A stretch of DNA of 35,840 nt from an uncultured Bacteroidales bacterium (GTDB taxonomy: Bacteria; Bacteroidota; Bacteroidia; Bacteroidales; Paludibacteraceae), in contig CADCBB010000018.1 in NCBI GenBank assembly GCA_902799555.1, positions 1 through 35,840 of the forward strand, given 5' to 3'. Position numbers and translations under genes: made by a program. The notes under the pieces are model-generated. The model had not been told where the DNA came from, did no database searches, and saw only the letters and a program-made list of their open reading frames with translations. Positions 1,217 through 29,598 of this stretch are shown here, piece by piece (position 1 is the first letter of the stretch; every line of letters begins with the position of its first letter).

Positions 1217-2285
1217 ACTGGTTATTTCTTGTAAATTCTTCCCGATGTTGCGTAGCCTGACGGGTATAACCGTTCTTCTTCCAAGCCTCGTAATGGGTAA
1301 GGATAAAAGCCTTGATCTTATCGGGATCATCGGTCGCGATGCCGGCATTCGTATAGGCGATGAGTTCCGCCAAAGCGCCTTTGTCGGACGGCACGCATAG
1401 CACGGGTTTCTCGCAGCCCAGCGCCTCGTAGAACTTCGTGGTCAGCATCCCGTGCGTGTTCGGTGCAGTGAGCACCAGCATCATACTGCTCCGACGAATG
1501 GCATCACCTAATTGGGTATGCGGGATCGGGTTGTTTTGCGGCGTATGCATCTCAAGCTCTACGTCCAAGCCCTTGATGGCTTGTCGGACGATCTCCAAGG
1601 CCGGTTGCTGCCATGCAAAGAGGGAGCCGATATACGTGATTTTAAAGGTCTCTGTGCGCACATCCTCCGGATAGAACTGCTTGTCGTCAAAGCCGTTATA
1701 CATCACCTGCACCTTCGGATTAAACTGCTTGATGAACTCCGCGTGCCATGGGGATACCGTAGTGATGGCATTCGCAGCACGGAGCACCTGATTGCGTCGG
1801 CTTACATGGATGGCACGGTAGAGATGACGGAAGGGCATCAGCCATCTGGACTGATGATGGTAATGATAAGTCGCATCTTCGACCTGTTCCTCCAGATCGC
1901 GAATATCGCAGATGAGGGGTACATTCAGCGTTTGGGCAATCCGTTGGGCGGCACCTAAGGGGAAGTCGCTGAAGGCGGAACAGAGGACGGCATCAAATTG
2001 GTGATAGGTAATGGGTAATTGGTGAATGGCTCTCCGTGCAAAGGCCCGGTTATGCCAATTGGTGAGCAGCGTCCAGACGGTTTTGATAAACCACTCGAAC
2101 GAGCCTCCGCGATACATGCGAATGGTTTCGATGGGGTAGGTATGCGCAAAGGGCAAAGGTTCGTTTGCTTCGGTCAGTAGGGTCACGTCAAATCCTTTCT
2201 GCACGAGGTACTCGCACAGATGGCGCACACGCGGAAGATAACCCGGTGCTGCAGGCGGATCAGATACAATTAATAATCTTTTCAT
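1188..2285 (-). CDS. Family 4-like glycosyltransferase (GT-B fold)
   Basis: A 365-aa protein starting MKRLLIVSDPPAAPGYLPRV. The N-terminal half has the GT-B acceptor-domain pattern (VRHLCEYLVQKGFDVTLLTE, then the donor-side YIGSLFAW). The C-terminal half ends in the GT4 signature region KFYEALGCEKPVLCVPSD, with the conserved Glu contacting the nucleotide sugar. ATG at 2285 is chosen over an upstream in-frame start because the family's first beta strand begins there; it overlaps the preceding DUF7033 gene by 26 nt. It probably adds a sugar to the lipid-linked oligosaccharide begun by the WecA-like enzyme of the same unit. Residues around HQLPITYHQF, close to the N-domain middle, are encoded by a 7-nt word array. 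Confidence 0.88.
   Translation of the reverse strand: MKRLLIVSDPPAAPGYLPRVRHLCEYLVQKGFDVTLLTEANEPLPFAHTYPIETIRMYRGGSFEWFIKTVWTLLTNWHNRAFARRAIHQLPITYHQFDAVLCSAFSDFPLGAAQRIAQTLNVPLICDIRDLEEQVEDATYHYHHQSRWLMPFRHLYRAIHVSRRNQVLRAANAITTVSPWHAEFIKQFNPKVQVMYNGFDDKQFYPEDVRTETFKITYIGSLFAWQQPALEIVRQAIKGLDVELEMHTPQNNPIPHTQLGDAIRRSSMMLVLTAPNTHGMLTTKFYEALGCEKPVLCVPSDKGALAELIAYTNAGIATDDPDKIKAFILTHYEAWKKNGYTRQATQHREEFTRNNQYDQFYRTYL
1996..2029. repeat. 7-nt word array inside the GT4 gene
   Basis: Consecutive heptads read on the plus strand ATTGGTG, ATAGGTA, ATGGGTA, ATTGGTG. In the protein it becomes HQLPITYHQF. Confidence 0.65.
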
Positions 2286-3423
2286 ACAAGGACCTATGAT
2301 AGGTCGTGTCGTTGATATTGCTGTTATGCCACAACAAACACAGGTCGCCATGGTGCATGCGCACCTTGTCCATCAATCGTTCGCAGAGGAAATAGGCCTC
2401 ATCTTCGGTCAGATCCATATAGTTCTCTTGGTTGAGCGTGTTATCCATCACCAGCAGCGGATGCAAGGTGAGGGTAGTCAACTTGTACGTATAGGGATTG
2501 ATCCACCGAACGGCACGCGAGGTCTGAAGACGGAATCCGGCGGCATCCGGAAAACCCATCGTGAAATCATCGGTATAGCCGGCCTTGATAAGACGCGTAA
2601 AATGGCTTGTCGAGCCGCGCAGGAAATGGGTACGATGGAGCGTACTGATCGGCTTTTTAGGCAGATCGCCGTAATAACTGCTATGCACGCCTAATTGTCC
2701 GCCATGGTCGAGGATCATCTGCTTCAACTGCTTGAAATCGCGTCCGTGCAGCGAGTACTGCGGGTAGTCGAAACCGGTACCTGCCGTCTGTTTGACGAAA
2801 TAGATCGGCTCGGCGTTCGGCACTTTCGCATCCATCTCCATCAACCACGGGAAAGTGTACAACGGATCGTTGTGGATATCCCGGATAGCGGCCCAGGCCT
2901 GCGCTTTCTCTCCGCGATGCAGTCCGCCGAAGAACCCGCGCAGATGGCGGTACTGCGAGATAGCATCGATATCGTGGGTAAGGTAGATATGTCCAAAACC
3001 GCTTTGCGGTAAAGGTGCGTTCAATAACTTCAGCAACAGCCGCGCATGCTCGTCCAGCATCGGAATATGCATGCGGTTCTTCTCGCCTAAGATGGAGTAC
3101 TCGGCCAGAAAACGGTCATGGTTATCGCGGTTCGTGTTAAAGGTCTCTTCAGCGCGTGAGATGAAGAAGAAAGTATTATACACGATATCCGTGCGGATAA
3201 TGGCTTTGTTTTTTGCAGGTTGTTCTACCTGCACTTTATCCATTTCCGGCAACACGATTCGATTACCCAAGTTACCTTTCGGCACAATAATCACATCGTG
3301 ATCTTCCAAGGCTTTCTCATCCTTGGTGTACGCTACTCGTTTGGCCAATTCGCTGTCTCCGTAACACAGCCAGGTAATGATGTAGTCAACGATTTCGTTT
3401 ACTCCTCGTTTAGAAGCTCCCAT
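2260..3423 (-). CDS. DUF7033 / polysaccharide-deacetylase-like protein
   Basis: A 387-aa protein. The N-terminal about 130 residues match the DUF7033 type that precedes deacetylase-like domains in Bacteroidetes. The C-terminal part begins LTHDIDAISQYRHLRGFFGG, where HDID is the metal/active-site Asp motif of NodB-like carbohydrate esterases. It continues with HGGQLGVHSSYYG (the second motif, histidines) and ends with HHGDLCLLWHNSNIND. It is probably a cytoplasmic or membrane-associated carbohydrate esterase acting on the surface polysaccharide; the substrate is unknown and catalysis is inferred. The gene overlaps the ABC-F stop by 25 nt and is itself overlapped by the GT4 gene. MGASKRG at 3423 is the only plausible early start. 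Confidence 0.82.
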   Translation of the reverse strand: MGASKRGVNEIVDYIITWLCYGDSELAKRVAYTKDEKALEDHDVIIVPKGNLGNRIVLPEMDKVQVEQPAKNKAIIRTDIVYNTFFFISRAEETFNTNRDNHDRFLAEYSILGEKNRMHIPMLDEHARLLLKLLNAPLPQSGFGHIYLTHDIDAISQYRHLRGFFGGLHRGEKAQAWAAIRDIHNDPLYTFPWLMEMDAKVPNAEPIYFVKQTAGTGFDYPQYSLHGRDFKQLKQMILDHGGQLGVHSSYYGDLPKKPISTLHRTHFLRGSTSHFTRLIKAGYTDDFTMGFPDAAGFRLQTSRAVRWINPYTYKLTTLTLHPLLVMDNTLNQENYMDLTEDEAYFLCERLMDKVRMHHGDLCLLWHNSNINDTTYHRSLYEKIINCI

Positions 3424-5177
3424 ACGTATAAATTTTGTTCTATTTGGTGTTTAATAGTTTCGTATTTATGGAAATTTTCCGGTGTCTGGTTTTCCGGAAT
3501 TGCCAGCATATTCTCCATGTCTGCCTGCTCTTGTTCCAATGCCGCGATCTTTGCCTCCACTTCGGCAATCTGTTTTTCTTTCTTGCGTTTTTCCGCTGCG
3601 AGTGCTTTCTGCTGGGCGTAGTCGAGCGCTCCACTAGGAGAACTAGGAACCCTAGGAGAACTCGGAATACTAGTTTTCTCCAATTCCTGGAGGGTGGAGA
3701 TCTTCTTCGTCCGCAGGAAATCGTATATACCGCCTAAGTGCTCTTTGACATGTCCGCCACCGAACTCATAGACTTTCGTCACCAACCCATCCAGAAAATC
3801 ACGGTCGTGACTGACGCAGATAAGCGTGCCGTTGAAGTCCTTGAGGGCGGCTTTGAGCACATCCTTGGACTGCATATCCAGGTGATTCGTCGGCTCATCG
3901 AGTATCAGCAGGTTGCAAGGCTCCAGCAACAGACGAATCATCGCCAGACGACTGCGTTCACCGCCGGACAGCACTTTGACTTTCTTGTCGCTTGCTTCGC
4001 CGCCAAACATAAATGCGCCTAAGATATCGCGTATCTTGGTGCGTATATCGCCTACAGCCACGTAATCAATCGTCTCAAAAACCGTCAGGTTCTCATCCAA
4101 AAGTGCCGCTTGATTCTGGGCAAAATAACCGATCTTGACATTATGTCCGATCTTGAGCGAACCCATATAATCCAACTGCCCCATGATACATTTGACCAGC
4201 GTGGTCTTTCCTTCGCCGTTCTTACCCACAAAAGCCACTTTCTCTCCGCGGCGAATGGTGAATGTCACGTCATGGAACACGGTATGCGTGCCGAAATCCT
4301 TGCGCAAGTCCTCCACGATCAGAGGAAAATCACCGCTTCGAGGTGCCGGCGGGAAACGGAGGTTCAACCGACTTGTATCTTCCAGATCGACCTCAAGTCG
4401 TTCGAGTTTTTCGAGTTGTTTGATTCGACTCTGTACCTGTACCGCTTTGGTCGCTTTGTACCGGAAACGCTCGATGAACTCCTCTGTATCCTGGATCATC
4501 TTCTGTTGGTTCAAATACGCCCGGACTTGTTGTTCGTGCCTTTCCTTACGTAGCTCAACAAAGCGAGAATAATTAACATTGTAATCATATATCCTACCTA
4601 AGGTTATTTCAATCGTTCGTCCGCACACATTATCGATGAAGGCGCGGTCGTGACTGACCATTAGCACCGCACTCGGACTCGTCTTGAGAAAATCTTCCAA
4701 CCATTGGATGGACTCGATATCGAGGTGGTTCGTCGGCTCGTCGAGTAACAGCAAGTCGGGGTGACGTAACAGGATCTTCGCCAACTCGATACGCATTCTC
4801 CATCCTCCGGAGAACTCGCTGCAAGGACGTTCAAAATCCTTGCGTACAAAACCCAACCCGATCACGGTGCGGTCCATCTCCGCCACAAAACGCGCCTCGT
4901 CTTCTCCGTTAAAGATCGTCATCACCTCTTCGCGCAACGTTCGGTCGTCCTGAAAAAGCATCACCTGCGGCAGGTAACCGATCGTCATGTCGGTCTCCCG
5001 GCTGATGCGTCCTGCCGTCGGTTGGTACTCTCCGGCAATGAGACGCAAGAGGGTGGTCTTACCCGCTCCGTTCTTACCCACCAGCGCGATACGCTCCTTC
5101 CTATTGATCAGGAACGAGATATCGTCCAGCACCGGGCGGGACGCAAACTCCATACTCAAGTGATCAATGCTTAGCAT
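3399..5177 (-). CDS. ABC-F family ATPase (ribosome-associated type)
   Basis: A 592-aa protein with two ABC modules and no membrane domain. Walker A motifs are GKNGAGKTTL (near residue 37) and GKNGEGKTTL (near 318). The signatures are FSGGWRMRIELAKILL and LSGGERSRLAMIRLL, and both Walker B ends read LDEPTNHLD. An ABC-F linker (YNVNYSRFVELRKERHEQQ) separates the modules. The C-terminus is a coiled coil (QKALAAEKRKKEKQ...EQEQADM), as in Uup/YheS-type members. ABC-F proteins act on the ribosome E site or on DNA junctions; which subgroup this is cannot be settled by eye. The linker between module 2 and the coiled coil is encoded by a 9-nt word array (IPSSPRVPSSPS). The start overlaps the WecA-like stop by 14 nt. 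Confidence 0.92.
   Translation of the reverse strand: MLSIDHLSMEFASRPVLDDISFLINRKERIALVGKNGAGKTTLLRLIAGEYQPTAGRISRETDMTIGYLPQVMLFQDDRTLREEVMTIFNGEDEARFVAEMDRTVIGLGFVRKDFERPCSEFSGGWRMRIELAKILLRHPDLLLLDEPTNHLDIESIQWLEDFLKTSPSAVLMVSHDRAFIDNVCGRTIEITLGRIYDYNVNYSRFVELRKERHEQQVRAYLNQQKMIQDTEEFIERFRYKATKAVQVQSRIKQLEKLERLEVDLEDTSRLNLRFPPAPRSGDFPLIVEDLRKDFGTHTVFHDVTFTIRRGEKVAFVGKNGEGKTTLVKCIMGQLDYMGSLKIGHNVKIGYFAQNQAALLDENLTVFETIDYVAVGDIRTKIRDILGAFMFGGEASDKKVKVLSGGERSRLAMIRLLLEPCNLLILDEPTNHLDMQSKDVLKAALKDFNGTLICVSHDRDFLDGLVTKVYEFGGGHVKEHLGGIYDFLRTKKISTLQELEKTSIPSSPRVPSSPSGALDYAQQKALAAEKRKKEKQIAEVEAKIAALEQEQADMENMLAIPENQTPENFHKYETIKHQIEQNLYVWELLNEE
3633..3674. repeat. 9-nt word array in the ABC-F linker
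   Basis: Words on the plus strand: ACTAGGAGA, ACTAGGAAC, CCTAGGAGA, ACTCGGAAT, ACTAG. It encodes the Ser/Pro linker IPSSPRVPSSPS between the second ATPase module and the coiled coil. Confidence 0.75.
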
Positions 5178-8171: not shown

Positions 8172-10918
8172 TGTTTACTTTGTATAATATGGGCAATATA
8201 CTTGCCGGTATAACTTTCTTGGCATTGCGCGAGCTCCTCCGGCGTACCTTCGAACACGATATGCCCGCCTTCGTTTCCGCCTTCTTTACCTAAATCGATC
8301 ACATGGTCCGCCGCCAGAATAACCGCGGGGTTATGCTCGATGATAATGACCGTGTGTCCCTTGCTGATCAGCCGATTCAACGCCTTCAACAGCACGTCAA
8401 TATCCCGGTGATGCAGACCCGTGGTCGGTTCATCGAAGACGAAGATCGTCGGGTGACTCTCTTCGGACGCCAGGAAGGACGCCAACTTCACACGCTGGCT
8501 CTCACCGCCCGAAAGCGTACTGCTGCTCTGACCCAACTGCACGTAGCCGATGCCGACGTCTTGCAGCGGCTTCAACCGTTTCACGATCTTCGAGCAGGCC
8601 GGATCCTCGCTGAAGAACTCCACGGCCTGATTGACCGTCATGCACAGGATATCATAGATCGACTTGTCGCGATAACGCACATCCAGGATATCTTGCTTGA
8701 ACCGCCGTCCGTGACATTGTTCGCACTCCAGCACCAGATCCGCCATGAACTGCATCTCGATCGTGATCGTTCCTTCTCCCTGACAGGTCTCGCATCGTCC
8801 GCCCGGCGTATTAAAACTGAAATGCGCCGGCGTCAGACCTAACTGTTTGGACAACGGTTGTTCCGCGAATAACTTACGGATCTCGTCGTAGGCTTTCAAA
8901 TAGGTCACCGGGTTGCTGCGGCTCGAACGACTCAGAGGATTCTGGTCCACAAACTCAATATCCTTCATCAAATGCAGACTTCCGCTCAAGTGACCGAAAT
9001 CGCCGGTATGCTCCGCATACACACCGCCGTAATGTTTCTTCAGCGCAGGGTAGAGCACCTTGCTCACCAAACTACTCTTACCGCTGCCGCTGACGCCGGT
9101 CACTACCGTCATCGCAAAGAGCGGAAAACGCACGGTGAGGTTCTTGAGGTTATTCTCACACGCACCCTCCACGCAGATATAATTATTCCAATGCCGCCGC
9201 TGCTGAGGGATATCATACGTGAACAACTCCGTTCTCGGACGCCCCTCGTACACCACCTCGCCGCCATGCCGACCTGCCTGCGGACCTATCTCAATCACAT
9301 GGTCAGCCGCCGCAATGATATCTTCGTCATGCTCCACGACCACGATCGTGTTGCCCAAGTCACGCAACTCCTTCAGCACATAGATCAAGCGCTCTGTATC
9401 GCGCGGATGCAGCCCGATAGAGGGCTCATCCAACACATACAGCGAACCCACCAGACTGCTGCCCAGGGACTTCGCCAAATTGATGCGCTGACTCTCACCA
9501 CCGGAAAGGGTCGTGCTCTGCCGGTTCAAAGTCAGATAACTCAATCCCACATCTTTCATGAACTGCAACCGGCTGCGGATCTCCTTGAGCAAGATCTCGG
9601 CCGTCTGCTGCTCGATATCGGTCAATAGCAAGTGTTCAAACCACTCGTCCAACTCGTATATTGGCATGCTGCATAACTGCTGGATACTCTTCCCCTGAAT
9701 CAACACATAACTCGCTTCCTTGCGCAAATGCATGCCCAGACAACTCGGACAGATCGTCTTCCCCTTAAAGCGCGCCAGCATCACCTTGTACTGGATCTTA
9801 CCGTACTGCTTCTCCTCCAACTCCTTGAAGAAAGCATGCAGTCCGCGGAAGTATTCATTTCCGGTCCAGATCAACTGCTTCTGTTCCGGCGTCAAGGCAT
9901 AGAAAGGCGTGTGAATCGGGAAATCGAACTTCGCCGCATTGTAAATAAGCGGCTCTAACCATTCGCGTTGCATGGCTTCGCTCTGCCAACACGCAATCGC
10001 TTGCTCGTAGATGGACTTCGACTTATTCGGCACCACCAGATCCTCGTCGATCCCCATCACTTGGCCTACGCCCTTACATTCGGGACAGGCACCCAAGGGA
10101 TTATTGAAGTCGAACAGGTGCTCACTCGGTTCGATAAACTGTATCCCATCTGCCTCGAAGCGCTCCGAGAAAACACTCGTCTTCGGTACATTGCCTTGTT
10201 GAACCACCACCTGACATTCGCCTTGCCCCTCAAAGAACGCCGTTTGTACGCTGTCTGCAAAGCGGTTGCTGGTCGCCTGCTCATGGTCCACTACGATACG
10301 ATCGACCAACAGATAGGCCTCGTGACCTTGCGCCTTCTCCCAAGTGCTGTCATCCAGACGTACCGCATCGCCGTCAATCATCAAGCGACTGAAACCCTGA
10401 CTCATCCACAAGGCTAACTGCTCTTTCAGGGTCCTGCCTTCCGGCAAAATGATCGGACTCAGCAGGTACAGACGTGCTCCCATGGCCTGCTGCTCCATGT
10501 AACTCACCACATCGCGGATCGTGTTTTTCTTCACTTCTTTCCCGCTCACGGGCGAGTACGTTTTGCCTACGCGCGCGTACAATAACTTCAAATAGTCATA
10601 GATCTCCGTCACGGTACCTACCGTCGAACGGGGATTGCGACTCGTCACTTTCTGCTGAATGGCGACTGCCGGCGGGATACCTTCGATCTTCTCCACCTCC
10701 GGCTTTTGCATGCGACCCATGAACTGTCGCGCGTACGCGCTGAGGCTCTCTACATACCTTCGCTGCCCCTCCGCATACAAGGTGTCGAACGCCAACGAAC
10801 TCTTGCCGCTGCCGCTCACACCGGTGATTACCACCAACTTACCGCGCGGTATATCTACCGACACATGCTTCAAGTTGTGGGTCTCTGCGCCTTCAATATG
10901 TATTACTTCGTCCTGCAA
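8168..10918 (-). CDS. uvrA: Excinuclease ABC subunit A
   Basis: A 916-aa UvrA, the damage-recognition ATPase of nucleotide excision repair. It has two [10 protein letters not shown] Walker A motifs (near residues 33 and 620), two LSGGESQR signatures, and [12 protein letters not shown] and [12 protein letters not shown] Walker B regions. The glycine-rich zinc finger near residue 720 is intact ([10 protein letters not shown], then [10 protein letters not shown]). The first zinc module is only half present: [13 protein letters not shown] is kept, but the preceding CPxC half is replaced by [10 protein letters not shown]. This fits a UvrA paralogue class I associate with Bacteroidetes. The start is TTG at 10918; no ATG fits before the conserved [10 protein letters not shown]. 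It overlaps the HU-LysM gene by 16 nt and the dehydratase by ATGA. Confidence 0.93.
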
Positions 10919-11988
10919 GCTTCTTCTGCCTCTATCCGCAATGCCTCCAAACGCGCTTTGGTCTCTGCATTCGTGGTATCGCGCTGCTCTTTGGTCAATT
11001 TCGGCACACGAATAGGCGTACCTACCTTGATCCTACTCGGGTTCACGATCACATCTCTATTGGCGTCATACAAGTACGGCCAGTATTTCTTATCGCCGTA
11101 GTACCGCTTTGCCATCCAGGTCAATCGACTCGCCTCGTGCATCTCCTCGATCGTGATCAAGTCCGAATAAGGTTCCGGTTCTACCGCCGGTTCTTCTACC
11201 ACCGGCTCCGGTACGATCGTATCCATCACCACCGGCTCTACTACCGGTTCTTCTGACTTCTGAATACTGATTTCTGAATTCTCTTTCGGCTGTGCCAGAC
11301 TCTCCATCCAACGGGTCAACTGACTCCGCAAGAAGAAATATCCGCCGAACAGCAGTAATAACAACACCACGACACAGATCAACAGATCCCGCACAAAATG
11401 GAATTGTTTCTTCGGTTTCTCCGGCTCTTTTTTCGGCTGCGGCTCTACAACTACAGGCTCCGGTTCCGGTGTCGGTTCAACTACCGGTTCTGGCTCAGGT
11501 GTCGGTTCTGGCTCAACTACAGGCTCCGGTTCCGGTGTCGGTTCTGGCTCCACGACCGGTTCTTCGGGTTTCTCGCTCTTCGGACCTTGCCCCAGATCCG
11601 CCAACAGGCCTACGATCTCCTCGGCCTGTTCACCGAGTTTCTTGAGAGGGTCTATCTCAGTACTTTCCACTTTCGACTTTCCACTTTCGACTTTCGAATC
11701 GCCGCGTTCTACCAACTCCTTCACACCCACTTCCGGCATAAAGACGATCTTATTGTATCCCGAGATGACGATTTCTTCACCCGTCTTCACATTCACACTC
11801 TTACGCGGCGCGACGGCTTGTAACTTGAACGTACCAAACCCGTTGATCTTCACCATCTTATCGGCACGAAGACCCCGTAATAACTGACTCGTCAAGGCAT
11901 TGAGGAACACCCCGGCTGTCTTCTCATTCACGCCTGCACGCGTAGCAACTGCACGGCGCAACTCGGTCCAACTAAGTTTATCTGCCAT
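10903..11988 (-). CDS. HU domain - Pro/Glu repeats - membrane helix - LysM-like domain fusion
   Basis: A 361-aa protein of unusual design. Residues 1-90 are HU/IHF-like ([26 protein letters not shown]). Residues 91-140 are a polar linker. Residues 141-183 are tandem [10 protein letters not shown] repeats. A basic stretch ([15 protein letters not shown]) leads into one membrane helix at about 201-220. A second Pro/Glu segment covers about 246-273. The C-terminal 276-330 is LysM-like ([22 protein letters not shown], then [13 protein letters not shown]). The basic flank suggests the HU domain is cytoplasmic and the LysM-like domain periplasmic, so the protein could tie DNA to peptidoglycan; this is inference. 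It lies 5 nt after a stand-alone HU gene. Two separate word arrays encode [12 protein letters not shown] and [10 protein letters not shown]. No name is assigned. Confidence 0.85.
11250..11284. repeat. 7-nt word array in the HU-LysM gene (second Pro/Glu linker)
   Basis: Words on the plus strand: CTTCTGA, CTTCTGA, ATACTGA, TTTCTGA, ATTCTCT. It encodes [10 protein letters not shown], just after the membrane helix. Confidence 0.7.
11435..11575 (-). repeat. Tandem coding repeat for Pro/Glu segment
   Basis: About four imperfect copies of a unit of about 36 nt encode [10 protein letters not shown]-type blocks of the HU-LysM protein. Copy number is likely to vary between strains (inference). Confidence 0.75.
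11662..11696. repeat. 7-nt word array in the HU-LysM gene (after the HU domain)
   Basis: Five heptads on the plus strand, alternating ACTTTCC and ACTTTCG. It encodes [12 protein letters not shown] directly after the HU domain. Different word from the array at 11250. Confidence 0.78.
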
Positions 11989-11993: not shown

Positions 11994-12272
11994 TTACGCG
12001 TTTTTAAGTTCTTCTTTCATGGCATTCACAGGACGGAAAACCAACTGCTGCTTACTCGGAATCGTACTCCGTTCACCCGTTCGAGGGTGCACGATTGTAC
12101 GGGCCGCGCGCTCTTTGATCTCAAAAGCACCCAAACCTTGCCACTGAATGACCTTACCCGCCATCAGATTTTCCCGCATCACAGCGTTCGTCGTCGCTAA
12201 TAACTGCTCCGTGTCTTTCTTACTCAGACCCGCTGCCTGAGCGATCATGCCAATAAATTCCTTGGTTAACAT
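11994..12272 (-). CDS. HU/IHF family DNA-binding protein
   Basis: A 92-aa protein of normal HU length. It has the N-terminal helix pair ([20 protein letters not shown]), the [15 protein letters not shown] strand motif, and the DNA-binding arm [18 protein letters not shown]. It ends [13 protein letters not shown]. It bends and compacts DNA as a dimer in the cytoplasm. Its start overlaps the rimO stop by 7 nt and its stop is 5 nt before the HU-LysM fusion, so the two HU-type chains are made together and could form mixed dimers (inference). Compared with canonical HU it has an acidic/neutral C-terminus and the divergent arm typical of Bacteroidetes paralogues. Confidence 0.92.
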
Positions 12273-13579
12273 ATATCTCCGTATAAATCAAATTCTTCTG
12301 CTTTCGTAATCTTCACATCATAAAAATTACCAATGACCAATGACAAATGACCAATGTTCTCAACGAGAACCTCGCAATCCACCTCCGGACTGTCGTACTG
12401 CGTCCGGCCGATCCAATAATCGCCTTCCTGTCGGTCGATGATCACGCGTTGAATAGTACCCACTTTCTCTGCCATCAACTCAGCGCTGATCGCCTGCTGG
12501 ATATCCATCAACTGTTCTACCCGCCGATCCTTCACCTCCTGCGGAATCGTATCCTCGTAATGTTTGTAAGCGTACGTGCCTTCTTCGTTCGAGTACGCGA
12601 AACAACCCATCCGCTCAAACCGCATCGCCTTCACCCATGCCTTCAATTCCTCAAAATCTTCTTCGGTCTCACCCGGATGGCCCACTAACAAGGTCGTTCG
12701 GATACAAATACCTGGCACGCGTTCCCGTATCTTTTGAATCAACGCGTCCTGTTCGGCACGCGTGATATGACGCCGCATCAAACCCAACATATGGTCCGTG
12801 CAATGTTGGAGCGCGATATCGAGGTACTTGCACACGTTCTGATGCTTCGCCATCACATCCAGCAACTCCTCCGGAAAATCCGTCGGATACGCATAGTGCA
12901 ACCGGATCCATTCCATTCCCTCTATCTGCGCCATCTCATCCACCAACTCCGGTAACAAGTGCCGTTTCTCCAAATCGAGTCCGTAACTACTGAGGTCCTG
13001 CGCAATGACATTCAACTCCTTCACACCTTGCCCTACTAACCATCTCACTTCCGCCAAGATCTCCTCCTTCGGCCGACTCGTATGCCGTCCCGTGATGAGC
13101 GGAATCGCACAGTACGAACACATCCGGTTACATCCCTCGCTGATCTTCAAATACGCATAATGGGATGGGGTAGTGAGATGTCGCTCATAATTCCGAGTAT
13201 TCTGATTAATCGGAGTATTCTGATTTTTCAAGCCGTCTACCATGTTCTCAAAATCGAATTTCCCGTAGTATTCATCCACCTCCGGCAGTTCTGCCTCCAA
13301 TTCTGCCCGATATCGCTCACTCAAGCACCCCATGACGATCAACTTCCGCAACTTCCCTGCCTTCTTCCGCTCGGCCATCTGCAGAATCATGTTGATGCTC
13401 TCTTCCTTTGCGTCGCCGATAAATCCGCAGGTATTGATCACGCACACTTCGCCTTTCGGCTCTTTCGGGTCATGCACACATCGCCATCCTGCCGCCTCCA
13501 ACTGCCGCATAACCCGCTCTGCGTCCACCAAGTTCTTCGAACATCCCAACGTTATAAAATCAACTACGCCTTTTTGCAC
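12266..13579 (-). CDS. rimO: Ribosomal protein S12 methylthiotransferase
   Basis: A radical-SAM methylthiotransferase that modifies an Asp of ribosomal protein S12. The N-terminal UPF0004 domain has TLGCSKNLVDAE, INTCGFIGDAKEESIN and VMGCLSERY, whose cysteines bind the second iron-sulfur cluster. The radical SAM motif is CNRMCSYCAIP. A TRAM domain follows at the C-terminus (VGTIQRVIIDRQEGDYWIGRTQYDSPEVDCEVLV). No ATG is available: an in-frame TAA sits just before TTG at 13588. GTG at 13579 gives MQKGVVDFITLGCSKN, which fits the family best and is chosen; TTG at 13588 would add three residues. Both candidate starts lie at the edge of a word array. Two further arrays fall inside the gene (QNTPINQNTR between the first two domains and NIGHLSLVIGNF in the TRAM end). 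Confidence 0.94.
   Translation of the reverse strand: MQKGVVDFITLGCSKNLVDAERVMRQLEAAGWRCVHDPKEPKGEVCVINTCGFIGDAKEESINMILQMAERKKAGKLRKLIVMGCLSERYRAELEAELPEVDEYYGKFDFENMVDGLKNQNTPINQNTRNYERHLTTPSHYAYLKISEGCNRMCSYCAIPLITGRHTSRPKEEILAEVRWLVGQGVKELNVIAQDLSSYGLDLEKRHLLPELVDEMAQIEGMEWIRLHYAYPTDFPEELLDVMAKHQNVCKYLDIALQHCTDHMLGLMRRHITRAEQDALIQKIRERVPGICIRTTLLVGHPGETEEDFEELKAWVKAMRFERMGCFAYSNEEGTYAYKHYEDTIPQEVKDRRVEQLMDIQQAISAELMAEKVGTIQRVIIDRQEGDYWIGRTQYDSPEVDCEVLVENIGHLSLVIGNFYDVKITKAEEFDLYGDIC
12326..12360. repeat. 7-nt word array in the rimO 3' part
   Basis: Words on the plus strand: ATTACCA, ATGACCA, ATGACAA, ATGACCA, ATGTTCT. It encodes NIGHLSLVIGNF in the TRAM domain end. Confidence 0.72.
13193..13228. 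repeat. 18-nt direct repeat (two 9-nt words) inside rimO
   Basis: CGAGTATTC and TGATTAATC alternate with GGAGTATTC and TGATTTTTC. It encodes QNTPINQNTR in the loop between the first and second RimO domains. Confidence 0.7.
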
Positions 13580-13641
13580 AATCGTCAATTATTATCAATC
13601 GTCAATAAATCGTACCTCGTCAATCGTCAAATCGTCAATTC
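13580..13641. repeat. ATCGTCA word array filling the recQ-rimO gap
   Basis: ATCGTCA-like heptads run through the whole gap, start at the recQ stop (13635-13637) and reach the rimO start codon, which they partly supply. Confidence 0.75.
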
Positions 13642-15818
13642 CCAAGGTCACAATGGAACTTCAACCGCACTAACCTTACGTGCATCTCATCGTAATAATC
13701 CTCGCCGAGTTCCTCCATCGCGGTCTTGATATTATCGTTATCGGCGTTCTTGAAATAATCGTAAATCTCTTCCTCTTCATCGGGATCGACCACCTCTTTG
13801 ATGAAGTAATTGATATTGATCTTCGTGCCGCTGAAAACGATCGCCTCCAGCTCGTCCATCATCTCCTCCATACTCATACCGCAACTCTCTGCCAGATCGT
13901 CCAGATCCACACGCCGGTCGATCGCCTGAATGATCTGTTTCTTGCGCGTACTCTTCTTGGCAACCGTACGAATCCGCAGATCCTCAGGACGAATGATCTC
14001 GTTCTCGTCCACATACTCCTTGATCACACGCAAGAACTCATCGCCATACCGTTTGGCCTTCGCTACACCTACGCCCGGGATGGTCAACAACTCATCCATC
14101 GTGATCGGATACGTCGTAGCCATCGCTTCCAGGCTCGGGTCTTGGAAGATCACAAACGGCGGCACATCGTTCTTCTTCGCTACCTTACGGCGGATATCCT
14201 TCAGGATGGAGAACAGCACCTCATCGGCAGCGGCACAGGTCGCACCCGCACCTTCCATATCCATCTCGTCTTCGTCATGCACCTCAATCGGCACCTCGAA
14301 CTTACCCGGCTTGCGGATGAACTTCAAACCGTCTTTCTGCAACTTCAGATCGCCGTACGTATCCACATCTTTCTTGATCATACCGACCAACAAAGCCTGT
14401 CTCAGAATGGCATGTAACGTACTCTCCTCCACATCGCTCGCGGCACCGAAGTTATCCAACTCGTCGTGGTGATAACTCATCACTTCGGCTGTCTGGTTGC
14501 CGTGCAGGATATCTACGATATGCTCTGCCTTATGGTGTTCGTTCACCTGCTGAATCGTCTCCAACGCCAACTGCAGCAACTCGCTCGCATCGATCTGCTT
14601 GTAGGTCTTCCGGCAGTTGTCGCAGTTGCCGCACTTGTCCTCCGTGTACTCCTCGCCGAAATAGTGGAGCAGCAACTTACGCCTACAGATCGTACTCTCC
14701 GCATAACTCTGCGTCTCGAAAAGCAGCTGATTACCGATGCCGATCTCTTTCGGCGTCTTGTCTTTTTGGAAACGTCTCAACCGCTCGATATCGTCCGGAC
14801 TGTAGAAACAGATACACTGTCCCTCGCCGCCGTCACGACCCGCACGACCTGTCTCCTGATAGTATCCTTCCAGACTCTTCGGGATGTCATAGTGGATCAC
14901 AAAACGAACGTCCGGCTTGTCGATACCCATACCGAATGCGATCGTCGCTACAATCACCTGACACTCTTCCATCAGGAATGCGTCTTGGTTCGCACTACGC
15001 GTAGCCGCATCCATACCGGCGTGATAAGGACGCGCCGAGATACCGTTCACTTTGAGCACCTCTGCCAGGTCTTCCACCTCCTTGCGCGCCAGGCAATAAA
15101 CGATACCGCTCTTACCTTCCATCCCGCGGATATAGCGCACAAGGTCTTTATCTACCTCTTCCGTCTTCGGACGTACTTCGTAATACAGGTTCGGACGGTT
15201 AAAACTGCTCTTGAAAACGGTTGCATCTGGCATACCGAGGTTCTTCTGAATATCTTTCTGCACTTTCGGCGTAGCCGTAGCCGTCAACGCTATAATCGGC
15301 GCCTTACCGATACGCTGAACCATACTGCGGATCTGACTGTACTCAGGACGGAAATCATGACCCCATTCCGAGATACAATGCGCCTCATCTACGGCATAAA
15401 ACGAGATCTTCACACCGCGCAAAAAGTCCACGTTCTCCGCTTTCTGCAAACTCTCCGGCGCCAGGTACAAGAGCTTCGTCTTACCCGCCAGCACATCTTC
15501 CTTCACCGCATTGATCTCTCCGCGCGTCAGACTCGAGTTGATGAAATGCGCCACACCTTCCTCTTCCGAGTAGTTACTCATCGCATCCACCTGGTTCTTC
15601 ATCAACGCGATCAACGGAGAGATAACAATCGCCACACCCTCCATGATCAACGACGGCAACTGGAAACAGAGACTCTTTCCGCCTCCGGTCGGCATCAGCA
15701 CAAACGTGTCCTTGCCCTCCATCACATTGCGAATGATCGCCTCTTGATTTCCCTTGAACGTGTCAAACCCGAAATAGGTCTGCAACGCCTTCACTAATTC
15801 CTCATGTGTTACATTCAT
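13635..15818 (-). CDS. recQ: ATP-dependent DNA helicase RecQ
   Basis: A 727-aa superfamily 2 helicase with 3'-5' unwinding activity in recombination and repair. Motifs include MPTGGGKSLCFQLP (Walker A, residues about 42-55), VDEAHCISEWGHDFRPEY (DEAH near 144), TATATPKVQ, GRAGRDGGEGQC (motif VI), and the zinc-binding set CRRKLLLHYF..CGNCDNC. An RQC winged helix and an HRDC domain (TIPGVGVAKAKRYGDEFL) follow, then a further C-terminal helical region (SCGMSMEEMMDELEAIVFSG) seen in Bacteroidetes RecQs. ATG at 15818 is chosen because the TATCTTTG promoter lies just upstream; a longer reading frame starts inside the promoter. It is the first gene of the minus-strand unit. The stop codon merges with a word array. 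Confidence 0.95.
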   Translation of the reverse strand: MNVTHEELVKALQTYFGFDTFKGNQEAIIRNVMEGKDTFVLMPTGGGKSLCFQLPSLIMEGVAIVISPLIALMKNQVDAMSNYSEEEGVAHFINSSLTRGEINAVKEDVLAGKTKLLYLAPESLQKAENVDFLRGVKISFYAVDEAHCISEWGHDFRPEYSQIRSMVQRIGKAPIIALTATATPKVQKDIQKNLGMPDATVFKSSFNRPNLYYEVRPKTEEVDKDLVRYIRGMEGKSGIVYCLARKEVEDLAEVLKVNGISARPYHAGMDAATRSANQDAFLMEECQVIVATIAFGMGIDKPDVRFVIHYDIPKSLEGYYQETGRAGRDGGEGQCICFYSPDDIERLRRFQKDKTPKEIGIGNQLLFETQSYAESTICRRKLLLHYFGEEYTEDKCGNCDNCRKTYKQIDASELLQLALETIQQVNEHHKAEHIVDILHGNQTAEVMSYHHDELDNFGAASDVEESTLHAILRQALLVGMIKKDVDTYGDLKLQKDGLKFIRKPGKFEVPIEVHDEDEMDMEGAGATCAAADEVLFSILKDIRRKVAKKNDVPPFVIFQDPSLEAMATTYPITMDELLTIPGVGVAKAKRYGDEFLRVIKEYVDENEIIRPEDLRIRTVAKKSTRKKQIIQAIDRRVDLDDLAESCGMSMEEMMDELEAIVFSGTKININYFIKEVVDPDEEEEIYDYFKNADNDNIKTAMEELGEDYYDEMHVRLVRLKFHCDLGN

Positions 15819-21400: not shown

Positions 21401-21678
21401 TCTATGATGAGGAAGGTAAGTCGATCATTGGTAGTGCTGACGCAAGTATTACCGACCGCTTCCTGGAGAATGCTTCATTCCTCCGTTGTGATAACATTAC
21501 ACTTGGTTATTCCTTCACAAAGGATAAAATCTCTGGTCGTGCATTCTGCACCGTTTCTAACCCGTTCGTGATTACTGGTTACAGCGGTCTTGATCCAGAA
21601 GTAGGTCTCGGTGGTGTGGATAACTCCATCTACCCGCGTTCGATGACTACCGTACTGGGTATTAACCTCCAGTTCTAA
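18433..21678 (+). CDS. SusC/RagA-family TonB-dependent outer-membrane transporter
   Basis: A 1081-aa protein. It has a signal peptide (about residues 1-27, ending VAAYA), a carboxypeptidase-D-like regulatory domain (VQGTVIDAANGEPIIGASVL, then SYMGYKTQEL), and the TonB-box-like EEVVVVGYGVVKKNDATGSV. The plug domain has GKIAGVNIATDGGTPGGGAS, SIRIRGGSSLNASNDPLIVIDG and the conserved LKDASATAIYGSRASNGVILITTKKG. A beta-barrel follows, ending NLQF with the aromatic C-terminus expected for BAM insertion. It imports an oligosaccharide through the outer membrane together with the SusD-like lid that follows. A word array begins at its stop codon and fills the gap to susD. Confidence 0.96.
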   Translation: MKKTNMNIFRTLAITLLLMVGSVAAYAQLAVQGTVIDAANGEPIIGASVLEIGTTNGTITDFDGNFTLTVKAGAKLSISYMGYKTQELDAKPNMSVKLGEDSELLEEVVVVGYGVVKKNDATGSVTAIKPDDMNKALTTTATDMLSGKIAGVNIATDGGTPGGGASIRIRGGSSLNASNDPLIVIDGLAMDNNGIQGVSNPLSLVNPNDIETFTVLKDASATAIYGSRASNGVILITTKKGKSGQKLKVSYDGNVSFGSVLKHLQVFTGDEIRAYATAAGQSDMANAFLMNENIDWFNQIYRTAVSTDHNVSLMGGVKNKVVDMPYRASVGYTLNNGAVKGSQMQRVTAAMNLNPSFLDNHLTFNLNAKGMYIYNSYEPGIAGAYLDKDPTAPIYSNGNLTNIHGDPILVGEANGKSYYLTKEELDAHWDGFFQPLGTSTSELGPYDDRNWMYSLKSNANPLAQLKHQSNTSQAGQFVGNLDATYMVHNFEDLVLHANFGADYSFGKQTNVNSILGTASHYTGWNGYNQKMKYNLQFNCYAQYGHDWEKAQQHFDIMAGYEWQHFYNEAKWEGNGIYPMTYEGSSGIPGGPAYPSVGQGKGENYLVSFFGRVNWIGWNQVMVTATVRGDGSSRFAKDNRWGVFPSVALGWKIKETFMKDVNWLNDLKLRLGYGITGQQDGAAIGDYSYMPTYIQTTGHTSYYPVGGTNYATEDYETHIVDKVVDNPNSENPNTLYISDRPEAFNPNLTWEKTTTYNAGIDFAFLNNRISGSIDYYFRNTTDLLNRVIVPMGTNFRKRVMSNVGSLQNQGVEFMINAVILDYGKKFKWDLGYNVTWNQNKITKINGVATMIDGDGKGGEGLGGKSITKFAIGYATNTFYLYEARKNYREDGSQYWYIIDQNNDGSIDELDKVFKHNPVAPVTMGFQTKFQFYDFDLGMSFRANIGNYVFNNVVSTRLQNVPIGQLARGGYYTNLPVDVFNTYYVDGYNRTIYDEEGKSIIGSADASITDRFLENASFLRCDNITLGYSFTKDKISGRAFCTVSNPFVITGYSGLDPEVGLGGVDNSIYPRSMTTVLGINLQF

Positions 21679-21712
21679 TTGAAAATTGAAAGTTGAAAAT
21701 TGAAAATTTAAA
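21678..21712. repeat. 7-nt word array filling the susC-susD gap
   Basis: Words: ATTGAAA, ATTGAAA, GTTGAAA, ATTGAAA, ATTTAAA, starting at the last base of the susC stop codon and ending 7 nt before the susD ATG. Confidence 0.78.
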
Positions 21713-21719
21713 AAATACT

Positions 21720-23542: not shown

Positions 23543-23589
23543 TAATTCAACAATTTAATTAACATTATTAACCAAAATTATTAACAAAA

Positions 23590-24963
23590 ATGAAAAAGTT
23601 TTATGCTTTTTTGGCAGCTGCGCTGATGAGTGTTAGCGTATTTGCTGCAAAGGACGTAGTTCCGTCTGACGCTGTCCTCGCTGAGTATTACGAGCCAGGT
23701 CAGGTGTGTGTATGTATTTACGTACCGAATGATCTGAAATGCTATGACATCGTCTTTGTAGGAACCTACAACGACTGGAATGCTTCTGCTTCTGCTTGCC
23801 AGAAATTTGAGCCGGTTGAGAATTTCGACGGTTGGTATGTAGTAGCCGTTGATGATGATGGTATGTACGAAGATGCTGCGACAGGCGAACTTAAACCGTA
23901 CGAGAGCCTTCAGGGTAAGCCTGTACAGCTGGATGCGAATGGTGACTTCAGCTGGGATTATCAGATTGGAGCTGCCACCTATGTTCGCGGTGGTGCTCAA
24001 ATCGTAGAAGGTGGAGTTGCTGGTGAGATTGACATCAAACAGTATGGAACCGATGCTCCGAACGTTTACACCGTAGAGGGTTGGAAGAAAGATCCGTGCT
24101 CGGCTGTGTACAATTCTTATACTGTAGCTGTTATCAACGATGGTTGCGGTGGTTTCGCTGTGCCGTTCATTGTAGGTAGCTTCAACAACTGGAAATTCCA
24201 ACAAATGCAAGTAGATGTAGAAAAAACTACGGAATTAGGTGCAGGCTACTACAAACTTGACTTCCGCGCAGCTTCTGGTGCAGAGTACCAGATTGTAAGC
24301 GGTTTGATGGATGAGACGGGCGCAATTGTTGAGCAACCGGCTTGGGCTGATATCGCTTATATTCAGGAGAATATCGATGGCGTATGGAGTCGTATTAATG
24401 GTGGTGCAAACTTCGCACTTGGTGAAGAAGCATTAATCGTATATGACCTTCGCGAGGAAAACCTTCGTTGGACTCGCTGCGATGATTCGCCTATTGAGAC
24501 CGTTGAGGTTAGTGTTAAACTCCCGGCAGAGAACTTCCCTGAAGAAGGCGTAGAAATCATCGGTACTTTCGATGATTGGGCTGGTACTGCTATGGCAATT
24601 GATGGTGATGTCTATAAAGCAACTGTCGAGGCTAAGGCTTCGCAGTTCTTCAAGTTCCGCTCTGCTGGTAAATGGCCGGGTGAGCAAGGTGGTACCGAAA
24701 TCGAGGTTTATCGCGCTGACGATGAGTGGACTTCCATTCAGGATAACGAGTTTGTATTTGGTCAACTCTGGGAGGGCGAAGAAGGTGCTCGTACTTTGTA
24801 CCTTGACTTAAGCAATTCTGAAACTTATCGTTGGCAAGCGCGTGAGCAAGGCATTGAGAACGTAGTTCTGACCGAGAAGGCTCAGAAGGTTGTTGTTGAC
24901 GGTGTCCTCTACATCATCCGTGACAACAAGATGTTCAACGTACAAGGTACTCAAGTTCGTTAA
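23590..24963 (+). CDS. Secreted protein with three CBM48/AMPK-like glycan-binding repeats and a C-terminal tail motif
   Basis: A 457-aa protein with a signal peptide (MKKFYAFLAAALMSVSVFAA) and no lipobox. Three similar blocks carry FVGTYNDWNAS (near residue 56), FIVGSFNNWKF (near 195) and EIIGTFDDWAG (near 320), the strand-turn pattern of CBM48 or AMPK glycogen-binding domains. This suggests binding of an alpha-glucan. It sits where SusE/SusF-type starch-binding proteins lie, after susD, but is not obviously lipid-anchored. The last 30 residues (QKVVVDGVLYIIRDNKMFNV then GTQVR) resemble the end of the BspA-like protein at 29597-33265 and may be a surface-sorting tail. It is the last gene before an intrinsic terminator. 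An alternative is a purely structural SusE-like protein. Confidence 0.75.
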   Translation: MKKFYAFLAAALMSVSVFAAKDVVPSDAVLAEYYEPGQVCVCIYVPNDLKCYDIVFVGTYNDWNASASACQKFEPVENFDGWYVVAVDDDGMYEDAATGELKPYESLQGKPVQLDANGDFSWDYQIGAATYVRGGAQIVEGGVAGEIDIKQYGTDAPNVYTVEGWKKDPCSAVYNSYTVAVINDGCGGFAVPFIVGSFNNWKFQQMQVDVEKTTELGAGYYKLDFRAASGAEYQIVSGLMDETGAIVEQPAWADIAYIQENIDGVWSRINGGANFALGEEALIVYDLREENLRWTRCDDSPIETVEVSVKLPAENFPEEGVEIIGTFDDWAGTAMAIDGDVYKATVEAKASQFFKFRSAGKWPGEQGGTEIEVYRADDEWTSIQDNEFVFGQLWEGEEGARTLYLDLSNSETYRWQAREQGIENVVLTEKAQKVVVDGVLYIIRDNKMFNVQGTQVR

Positions 24964-27676: not shown

Positions 27677-27693
27677 CGTTTGCAAAAACGATG

Positions 27694-27724
27694 CAAAGGT
27701 ACTGCTTTTTTTTGAGATATGCAA
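27694..27724 (-). promoter_or_regulatory. Bacteroidetes promoter for the permease-panB operon
   Basis: On the minus strand, TTGCATATCTC at 27724, 20 nt from TTG to TACCTTTG (27701-27694). The leader to ATG 27676 is only about 10 nt, which fixes that start. Confidence 0.82.
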
Positions 27725-27814
27725 ATAAATCTGCTATTTGAGTAGGTATTGTCTCTTATTTGCCTCCTATTAGGGTGCGTAAAGGGTAGTACAATGACTA
27801 ACGAATATCCAGCG

Positions 27815-27847
27815 AATAACTAAGAAATAACTAAGAAATAACTAATA
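27815..27847. repeat. 11-nt word array in the divergent spacer
   Basis: AATAACTAAG, AAATAACTAAG and AAATAACTAAT in direct succession, about 90 bp upstream of the permease promoter. Confidence 0.7.
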
Positions 27848-27927
27848 ATAGGACTTATTTTGGTGCTTGACTAAAACTGAAAAAGGTTGTGACGGAGTGA
27901 CCTCGTTCCTATACAAAAAAATGACAT

Positions 27928-28069
27928 GACACTTTTGACACTTTTGACACTTTCTATCTTTTTGATAGCTCTGCGTCCTATTGGACGTATCAAAATGTAA
28001 ACAATCGTCCCCAAAATCGCGCGCATTTTTGACTTTTTGTAAGAAAGTGTCAAAAGTGTCAAAAGTGCC
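27928..28069. repeat. 142-bp element with 28-bp near-perfect inverted ends made of 9-nt words
   Basis: Left end 27928-27955 is three copies of the word GACACTTTT/C. The right end 28042-28069 is its inverted copy with one mismatch in 28. The 86-bp interior holds a small hairpin (GTCC TATT GGAC). No plausible gene is inside. It could be a miniature mobile element or a stem-loop RNA. Confidence 0.6.
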
Positions 28070-28193
28070 AGTGCAAATTTTTATAATTTGGGAGGTTTTT
28101 AGATTGTACTTAAAAGCTATCAATGCCGTTCGCATTACGTTCGCATCCCGTACGTGCCCGTAAGACATAAAATATAAAAAATTTTTAAAATAT

Positions 28194-28224
28194 TTGCATA
28201 TATCAAAAAAAAGTACTACCTTTG
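28194..28224 (+). promoter_or_regulatory. Bacteroidetes promoter for the DUF4143 ATPase
   Basis: TTGCATATATC at 28194, 20 nt from TTG to TACCTTTG (28217-28224). About 60 nt of leader follow, containing a short repeat array. Confidence 0.82.
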
Positions 28225-28250
28225 CAGCGGAAAACAAAATAACTCATTCC

Positions 28251-28292
28251 ATTGAGTAAAAATACTAAGTGTATTGAGTAAAAATTTGAAGT
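28251..28292. repeat. Period-11/22 array in the leader of the DUF4143 gene
   Basis: ATTGAGTAAAAAT occurs at 28251-28263 and 28273-28285 (spacing 22). The first copy also forms a 5-bp hairpin with ACTCA at 28242-28246. It could be another word array or a leader control site. Confidence 0.5.
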
Positions 28293-29480: not shown

Positions 29481-29531
29481 TTCAATGATTTGTAGCGCTT
29501 TTGCCGTGAAATTAAGCTTACAATCACAACA

Positions 29532-29562: not shown

Positions 29563-29568
29563 AGATTT

Positions 29569-29598
29569 GTACTTGGTACTTAGTCCCTTGGTCACTTT
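29569..29598. repeat. 7-nt word array at the BspA-like stop codon
   Basis: Words on the plus strand: GTACTTG, GTACTTA, GTCCCTTG, GTCACTT. On the minus strand it begins at the stop codon of the BspA-like gene (29597-29599). Confidence 0.65.

Follow-up and report, generated by a model that had tools for sequence, protein, structure and literature searches.

Many-word heptamer arrays occupying gaps and protein slots in an uncultured Bacteroidales bacterium and its relatives

Bacterial genomes have been reported to contain an excess of heptamer repeats, for which no cause has been settled. Among long simple sequence repeats, heptanucleotides were found to be the top class in most genomes, and slippage tied to the contact length of the polymerase was proposed (Mrazek et al. 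2007, via PMC4679880 and PMC4692102). TAACTGA direct repeats occur in Beggiatoaceae, Cyanobacteria, and five Bacteroidetes including Paludibacter propionicigenes (MacGregor 2015, PMC4679880); Xanthomonas and Nostoc have dispersed heptamer arrays of the GGGAATC or GGGGA(C/T)T type (PMC4692102); and the P6b stem-loop of the Nostoc tRNA-Leu intron contains the heptamer motifs TDNGATT and NNTGAGT (Kaasalainen et al. 2015, PMC4476775). In this work, we analyzed short arrays of 7- to 11-nucleotide (nt) words in a stretch of 35,840 nt from an uncultured Bacteroidales bacterium (hereafter the window; positions 1-35840 of contig C18 of genome G000, an assembly of 2.34 Mb in 82 contigs). The gene content of the window is Bacteroidales-type (SusC/SusD, RimO, RecQ, an HU-domain protein, and a UvrA-like protein), and the closest named relatives are uncultured Bacteroidales metagenome-assembled genomes, several of them Paludibacteraceae of ruminant guts. 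We consider it probable, if well short of certain, that short arrays, most often with a 7-nt unit, which is strongly preferred, and then with units of 8, 9, and 11 nt, pervade this genome and its relatives, and that they arise by local and ectopic copying filtered by selection.

The preferred periods emerge from a census with a strict cut-off of at least 17 of 21 matches at a given lag. Twenty stretches of 20 kb from the window's own genome (400 kb) contain 57, 34, 8, 4, and 7 arrays at lags 7, 8, 9, 10, and 11 and 1, 0, and 1 arrays at lags 4, 5, and 6, compared with at most 0.1 arrays at each of these lags in shuffled sequence. In close relatives (35 loci, 362 kb), lags 7, 8, 9, and 11 give 66, 8, 36, and 20 arrays, the lag-9 count being partly made up by a conserved RecQ stretch with AACTGCGAC-type words; in Bacteroides, Prevotella, and others (45 loci, 453 kb), lag 7 is still the top class with 18 arrays. 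Several Prevotella-type loci have array words that by eye are of similar style, and eight of the nine loci titled Bacteroides are without a lag-7 array, while L110 has two. For array presence across the family as a whole, 20 other stretches give no more than a rough view: 4 of them, without a single G or C, were dropped, and several others are short. The relative RUG12549 (G157, from which locus L059 derives) has 92 lag-7 arrays in 407 kb, and the lag-7 density per 100 kb is 22.6 in G157 and 13.9 in the window genome, for which a larger sample of 836 kb was used. Inside predicted genes, 49 lag-7 arrays stand against 6, 10, and 2 at lags 6, 9, and 12 in the window genome, and 33 against 0, 1, and 3 in G157. 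Because period 7 leads in genes although periods of 6, 9, and 12 keep the reading frame, we attribute the period to the copying process and not to the frame. Gene calls were made with a simple home-made caller, which missed a leucine-rich-repeat (LRR) gene and misplaced some starts. Separately, GGCGACA-type heptamer arrays of more than 100 nt are present in L231, a locus of another species of the genus (G127).

In the window itself, the same cut-off yields four lag-7 arrays (0.02 in shuffles), two lag-9 arrays, and one lag-11 array. The 14 places for which a fixed period had originally been predicted were each scored against 1000 local dinucleotide shuffles (18 comparisons per score, the best lag from 4 to 12 being taken), and most of them are also reported by Tandem Repeats Finder (TRF). 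They are as follows.

1996-2029, no strand assigned: ATTGGTA-type heptamers within the coding sequence of a glycosyltransferase (1188-2351, minus strand); supported by TRF and shuffles.
3632-3673, no strand assigned: CTAGGA-type nonamers where the C-terminal linker of an ABC-F-type protein is encoded (3399-5177, minus strand); weak alone (46 of 1000 shuffles as good).
11251-11282, no strand assigned: TTCTGAA heptamers, located where an HU-domain protein (10903-11988, minus strand) is of low complexity.
11662-11697, no strand assigned: second heptamer array of that HU-domain protein (10903-11988), with the words ACTTTCG/ACTTTCC.
12325-12356, no strand assigned: heptamer array AATGACC (ATTGGTC on the coding strand), encoding a loop of the RimO TRAM domain (rimO, 12266-13588, minus strand).
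13190-13236, no strand assigned: TCTGATTAA-type nonamers encoding another loop of RimO; weak alone (30 of 1000).
13580-13641, no strand assigned: copy of a dispersed element of ~62 nt, here called E, between recQ and rimO; period-7 part weak alone (102 of 1000).
21677-21713, plus strand: heptamer array AATTGAA, filling the gap from a susC-type stop codon (21676-21678) to an in-frame susD-type ATG (21720).
23543-23591, plus strand: AT-rich repeat resembling 13-nt units, not an 8-nt array, extending up to an ATG at 23590.
27815-27845, no strand assigned: AATAACTAAGA 11-mers in the long intergenic stretch that precedes an AAA_14/DUF4143 gene.
27927-27953, no strand assigned: nonamer array, (TGACACTTT)x3; supported by TRF and shuffles.
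28044-28067, no strand assigned: nonamer array, (AAAGTGTCA)x2.7, the reverse complement of the array at 27927.
28251-28292, no strand assigned: about two copies of a 22-nt sequence, not an 11-nt array (5 of 18 matches at lag 11).
29574-29610, no strand assigned: ACTTGGT-type stretch with a weak period of 7, located where a BspA-type LRR gene ends (13 of 18 matches).

Eight of the 14 clearly exceed their local shuffles, with 0-4 of 1000 shuffles as good (2.0, 11.25, 11.66, 12.3, 21.7, 27.8, 27.9, and 28.05 kb), so that for the majority the prediction of non-chance arrays is borne out. Four are weak, with 30-102 of 1000 shuffles as good over lags 4-12 (3.6, 13.2, 13.6, and 29.6 kb), and with 8, 0, 15, and 3 per 1000 as good when the claimed lag alone is considered; the last of them, for which the two values are 49 and 3 of 1000, is absent from the TRF output. 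The remaining two fail at the period assigned to them, namely lag 8 at 23.5 kb (9 of 18 matches, with 754 of 1000 shuffles equal or better) and lag 11 at 28.25 kb. Single stretches can thus be ordinary low-complexity coding sequence or chance, and two more are of that kind: 11448-11563 is an ordinary low-complexity tail of the HU-domain protein, with a 30-36-nt repeat of CGGTTCTGGCTC units that is also found in altered form in L059, and the TRF repeat at 14613-14639 corresponds to the RecQ CxxC codons, conserved in 14 of 14 aligned relatives. Together with the share of RecQ in the lag-9 counts of the relatives, these cases are what speaks for ordinary sequence, assembly error, or chance as a general explanation, which we nonetheless consider scarcely credible in view of array numbers that far exceed those of shuffles in genomes assembled independently, the occurrence of identical arrays across species, and a unit of 7 nt that is no multiple of a codon.

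Alignment of orthologous loci reveals both presence/absence of arrays and change of word between species. In the RimO TRAM loop, which follows EVDCEVL and is a four-residue insertion relative to Thermotoga RimO 4jc0, a period-7 array is present in 18 of the 34 loci scored (the window genome plus L059-L093; an array was called when at most 2 of 200 letter shuffles were as good, and 2 of 36 loci could not be parsed) and in none of the three outgroup loci that could be parsed out of six. Words in this and the following slots (RimO, PrmC, MurG, ABC-F, 1996, 11251, and 11662) were read by eye; in the TRAM loop they number a dozen or more, and the array at 12325 is identical in L059. The second RimO loop (the 13190 slot) holds 7-, 8-, 9-, or 11-mers or palindromic repeats depending on the species, and many species are without a clear repeat there. 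In PrmC, the linker between RPETAELVE and VLDIGTGSGC is occupied by E in the window genome, by AAAGGTT heptamers in G157, by AAATTTC in G158, by AAATATC in G003 and G006, and by a palindromic sequence in G033, and it has no clear array in G159. Similarly, a MurG loop contains E in the window genome, GGAGATT heptamers in G158, ATTGGTG heptamers in G003, other repeats in G159, and ordinary sequence in G157, G006, and G033. Over eight genomes, the ABC-F linker (the 3632 slot) contains 9-mers, two kinds of 7-mers (GTTGGCT in G157 and CTTTCCA in G003), GGTTGACCGTC 11-mers (G158, G033, G034, and G159), or a palindrome (G006). At the 1996 slot (2 of 7 compared loci unmatched), the word is kept in G033, a palindrome of the TCCGCCAA..TTGGCGGA type is found in G157 and G034, and ordinary sequence that is 9 nt shorter is found in G003 and G158. 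At the 11251 slot (9 of 15 loci unmatched), L059 has ordinary sequence and the relatives mostly other sequence; at the 11662 slot (1 of 15 unmatched), L059 keeps the word and other relatives mostly have other sequence. Phase-variable simple sequence repeats switch a gene on or off by a change in unit number; the coding arrays compared here stay in frame between species. Ordinary conservation, which would have explained the arrays away, is true of the RecQ stretch 14613-14639 and is rejected for the slots. As a separate observation, palindromic small repeats of the CCGGATGCCATCCGG, CCCTCTCCC..GGGAGAGGG, and TCCGCCAA..TTGGCGGA types share protein slots with arrays, and at the sites orthologous to 13.2 and 2.0 kb they are present in L031, L032, L064, L066, L068, L069, L256, and L261.

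For a systematic comparison of the window genome with G157, we counted array places at lags 7, 8, 9, and 11 and dropped those lacking both flanks in the other sample. With this restriction, 30 of 204 places in the 836 kb of the window genome have both flanks in the 407 kb of G157, where eight have the same lag and word, four the same lag and another word, four another lag, and 14 no array; in the reverse direction, 30 of 138 places have both flanks, and the four classes contain 7, 5, 1, and 17 places. Of the sites where the word was not kept, 8 of 22 and 6 of 23 have another array, compared with 11 of 400 random windows (about five sites are common to both directions, and L025:13777/L176:508 and L173:12168 may each be one array that changed), arguing that the sites are preferred or tolerant. 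The array L025:13082 is identical in both genomes. Other orthologous arrays differ in length by exact units, i.e. by 21 nt (3 x 7) between L025:13777 and L176:508, by 8 nt (1 x 8) between L210:2174 and L189, and by 9 nt (1 x 9) between L210:14027 and L190:8054, showing that units are gained or lost locally. Clean presence/absence is seen where a stop codon and an ATG are separated by a 65-nt GTTAGC-type array in G157 and overlap as TAATG in the window genome, and in rimO of G157, which has an in-frame 30-nt array at a site that is empty in the window; the 22-nt core of this array has 20 matches in G157 at up to three mismatches (itself included, and a few overlapping), and the reversed control has none.

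The unit-exact differences are also an argument for a purely local origin, in which slippage acts on the bases of each site and words drift by mutation and homogenization. In line with this explanation, the unit of the RimO TRAM array can include conserved Ile-Gly codons, and the words of the window and of L030 in the TRAM slot are, by eye, two bases apart in the same phase. Yet the G157 rimO array at a site empty in the window has a word found elsewhere in G157, unrelated palindromic repeats fill the same slots, and the words are not random. The 61 lag-7 arrays of the first sample and the window use 40 distinct canonical words, and these are clustered, with a mean nearest-neighbor distance of 0.46, where words with shuffled letters give 0.95 and heptamers drawn at random from the genome give 1.25. 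The array words form a shared, non-random lexicon. AAAGGTG alone accounts for 15 of 116 lag-7 arrays in the 836 kb. The original prediction that the word differs at every locus is only partly right, since words recur and are related, and locus-specific words as such are not what we find. Some octamers (e.g., ACGTCATG and AACGTTAT) and nonamers (e.g., CCTAGGAAT) are by eye self-reverse-complementary up to rotation. Among words chosen after the arrays had been seen, GTTAGCTGTTAGC and GTTAGCCGTTAGC (GTTAGC words) occur eight times each in G157 and not in the window genome's sample, AATCGTCAATCAATCGT and CCTAGGAATCCTAGG occur seven and six times in the latter and not in G157, and others, such as AAAGGTGAAAGGTG (17 and 12), are common to both. 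Sharing of 12-, 14-, and 16-mers among lag-7 arrays is greater within than between genomes, and 8, 25, and 40 of 2000 permutations of the genome labels give as large a difference.

The second line of evidence for exchange between loci is E. At 13580-13641 it consists of TCGTCAA words spaced 7, 7, and 8 nt and an aperiodic 5' part, and its minus strand contains the codon at which recQ stops (AAT TGA, 13635-13640). Near-copies are present in the window genome and in G021, G027, G001, and G002, with matched pieces mostly 82-96% identical; the interspecies identity of the 12-16 kb region of the window is 65-86%. A profile search of the loci gave 35 matches (33 distinct), of which 17 are in loci of the window genome, some of them short or weak. 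Several copies have a shortened or different 5' part while the 3' end is more constant, and in some, TCGTCAAT is changed to TCGTAAAT at several places within one copy. In L041 and L042, recQ and rimO are separated at the junction orthologous to 13.6 kb by unrelated sequence several hundred nt long, which may contain an open frame. A dispersed 62-nt sequence with aperiodic parts speaks against slippage in place, and we regard the purely local origin as unlikely. We conclude from the shared lexicon, E, the copies of the G157 rimO array, and the genome-private words that copying between loci is also required. Accordingly, the original prediction that the arrays arise in place by local copying stands for the unit-wise changes of 21, 8, and 9 nt and falls short for E, the lexicon, and the G157 rimO word.

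E, with its variable 5' end, steadier 3' end, and patchy occurrence between species, resembles a small dispersed element, and a dedicated mobile system, MITE-like (miniature inverted-repeat transposable element), REP-like (repetitive extragenic palindromic), or driven by a reverse transcriptase, might insert the arrays, the heptamers being decayed copies. Clean presence/absence at stop-start junctions and the two RVT_1 matches of the window genome fit such a system. However, the ends of E are direct rather than inverted, no terminal inverted repeats or target duplications were seen by eye at the sites read, and the ends and lengths of arrays vary. Among 31 congeners, nine have RVT_1 (the window genome included) and nine have Y1_Tnp (seven above the cut-off), the latter being the transposase family to which the search was confined. 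G033 and G004, in which neither was found, have arrays by eye; G034 has arrays, no RVT_1, and a Y1 match right at the cut-off. Because arrays are present in G033 and G004, neither a reverse transcriptase nor a REP transposase is supported as a necessary cause and core machinery is favored; a dedicated mobile system appears to us as improbable as a purely local origin. Loss of mismatch repair is rejected as a cause since MutS_V is present in 31 of 31 congeners.

The placement of arrays is uneven. Lag-7 arrays are enriched in intergenic sequence (2.6-fold in the window genome and 3.4-fold in G157) and in the last 15 codons of genes (2.5- and 1.8-fold, from nine and four arrays) and are depleted in mid-gene (0.6- and 0.4-fold). 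In the larger sample of the window genome, 58 are mostly intergenic while the 49 counted above lie fully within coding sequences. Among coding arrays, 36 of 49 in the window genome and 27 of 33 in G157 have a consensus word without a stop codon when read on the coding strand (opposite strand, 24 of 49 and 16 of 33). For intergenic arrays, each counted on both strands, the corresponding readings are 50 of 116 and 41 of 100 (Fisher p = 6e-4 and 5e-5). The coding strand of coding arrays shows no common rule as to an excess of G over C (G>C in 23 and C>G in 25 arrays of the window genome; 9 and 23 in G157). In co-directional gaps (50 and 42 arrays), the median distance is 0 and 1 nt to the upstream stop but 37.5 and 37 nt to the downstream start, the closeness to the stop being partly due to arrays supplying stop codons.

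The many arrays between stop and start of co-directional genes, and copies of E that by eye end 0-8 nt before an ATG, could point to regulatory or translational leader sites, as proposed for the TAACTGA repeats of Beggiatoaceae. The distances just given do not fit this idea, nor do the 34 of 61 lag-7 arrays of the first sample that are centered within predicted coding sequences or the frequent replacement or absence of words at orthologous sites. Moreover, E is found both ways round relative to ATG, by which a fixed leader orientation is rejected, and Rfam has no match in the window, by which a known structured RNA is rejected. We therefore consider leader function very unlikely.

Arrays also appear to write the beginnings of proteins. 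Three genes of the window genome that lie within 6 kb, labeled intergenic by the caller, have signal-peptide-like N-termini encoded by CTAGG nonamers (e.g., MRKSIKLGLLGILGLLGLLVTPSFAQ). The G157 orthologues of two of them have starts written by heptamers (MRELKIKNYKLKIIF... and MMRNNIKVKGERLTEKGILLSIFIFQFSICFAQ), while the third has an octamer array, and a lipoprotein-like signal of G157, MKKIFIIHYSLFIVIALSAISC, is encoded by ATTATTC heptamers. Judged by their appearance, such signal peptides may be functional.

Our working model for local and ectopic copying has four steps. First, an existing array gains and loses whole units, as the orthologous arrays that differ in length show. Second, array sequence is copied to unlinked sites, which sequence identity demonstrates for E and the shared words support for heptamers; as a result, related words become frequent within a genome. 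Third, arrays are commonest in freer sequence, i.e. in gaps starting at a stop codon and in C-terminal tails, and in genes they are located in surface loops, linkers, and some signal peptides, with stop-free words and strands favored. Fourth, an orthologous slot may retain an array while its word is replaced, as observed between species. Both modes of copying might be carried out by the core replication and repair machinery, units changing by slippage and words spreading by template switching or gene conversion between similar words, and the 7-nt step may be set by contact between polymerase and DNA. The arrays would need no function of their own, and their effect would be a supply of linkers, tails, and signal peptides.

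Several observations weigh against this model or are not accounted for by it. No copying event was observed, and it is shared words that suggest ectopic copying of heptamers; convergent birth under a biased process could mimic such sharing, and the within-genome excess of shared words is modest. At some slots the replacement preserves length (36 versus 36 and 48 versus 48 nt), which looks like overwriting rather than insertion. A stop codon lies within the consensus word of 13 of 49 and 6 of 33 coding arrays in the window genome and G157. E is patchy, in that 7 of 120 family genomes matched at 1e-5 (the window genome with seven matches, the other six weakly) and it is absent from six listed congeners; its 5'-end variation is unexplained by the model, and it could be moved by an unrecognised transposase. 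According to our caller, the first 30 codons are not enriched in lag-7 arrays (2 of 116 and 4 of 87), and the signal-peptide cases therefore stand as examples. Nearly all compared genomes are metagenome assemblies.

Beyond the copying model, we tentatively entertain a bolder possibility, to which we give less credence than to the model itself: the 7-11-nt words may be minimal self-spreading units, gene-free and copied by replication and repair enzymes of the host into a standing set of tolerant slots (operon gaps, protein loops, tails, and signal peptides), blooming and declining in each species and rewriting, in the vocabulary that a species uses at the time, those parts of conserved proteins that are free to change, working signal peptides among them.

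Further features of the window deserve mention. The 170 nt at 27916-28085, bounded by the inverted 9-mer arrays TGACACTTT/AAAGTGTCA, are 98% identical to G157, the adjacent match being 82%, and have one 38-nt partial copy among the other loci compared; they are possibly a small element that was transferred or is strongly conserved. The AT-rich stretches 28170-28232 (from 28190: TTTGCATATATCAAAAAAAAGTACTACCTTTGCA) and 27684-27735 match dozens of places in three relatives, and we take them to resemble the Bacteroidetes-type promoter. Positions 29597-33265 encode a large BspA-type LRR protein with InlB-like repeats.

Tiny repeats seem to spread in these genomes and to rewrite unconstrained DNA. 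This points to repeats as a source of new peptide segments, including signal peptides, and bears on gene annotation, the calling of start sites, and views on the origin of linkers and signal peptides. Because orthologous slots in many species display birth, unit change, replacement, and loss of arrays against conserved flanks, models based on slippage, ectopic copying, and mobile elements become testable. What is already known is the heptamer excess in bacteria. Our literature search found no report of its many-word, coding-slot, word-replacing form in Bacteroidales, nor of coding-slot heptamers there, although most subscription papers were outside the search and this is no proof of absence.

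Compared with described systems, the arrays are by repeat structure not clustered regularly interspaced short palindromic repeats (CRISPR), as their units of 7-11 nt stand head to tail without spacers, and neither do they match MITE or REP sequences, given the direct ends of E, the lack of target duplications by eye, and the distribution of Y1_Tnp, the one transposase family searched. E works like a Rickettsia palindromic element in sitting in frame in the unrelated PrmC and MurG but is not a member of that group, being non-palindromic. As described in PMC10969869, the Rickettsia elements are likewise small repeats tolerated in frame in unrelated protein genes, but they are ~150 bp, palindromic, and belong to defined families, unlike the 25-65-nt arrays of 7-11-nt words described here, for which palindromes are merely competing occupants of slots. 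The nearest parallel is, as originally predicted, with the heptamer repeats of cyanobacteria, and in having unit-7 direct repeats in genome-wide excess the arrays match heptameric short tandemly repeated repetitive or simple sequence repeats; with 40 canonical words in 61 arrays, they are not of the type with one or few words represented by TAACTGA and GGGAATC. The long repeats of Mrazek et al. 2007 exceed expectation in length, whereas the arrays here are short, imperfect mosaics with word turnover and dispersal. The GGGAATC arrays (PMC4692102) are also dispersed and mostly occupy gaps between corresponding genes of related strains, varying in length and sequence, but consist of one G-rich, quadruplex-forming word type, while here the words are many and mostly AT-rich. 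Like the arrays here, the TAACTGA repeats (PMC4679880) are heptamers, mostly intergenic near starts with some in genes, and are lacking at the same gap in some relatives; unlike them, they use one word, related heptamer direct repeats being rare in Maribeggiatoa, while many words, often inside conserved proteins, are found here. Finally, in the Nostoc P6b stem-loop (PMC4476775), one motif class likewise repeatedly replaces the other in place, partly over the whole region, and 7-nt units are gained and lost; that system comprises one RNA stem-loop and two motif classes, whereas here a single protein slot can hold a dozen or more words and each genome has many such slots.

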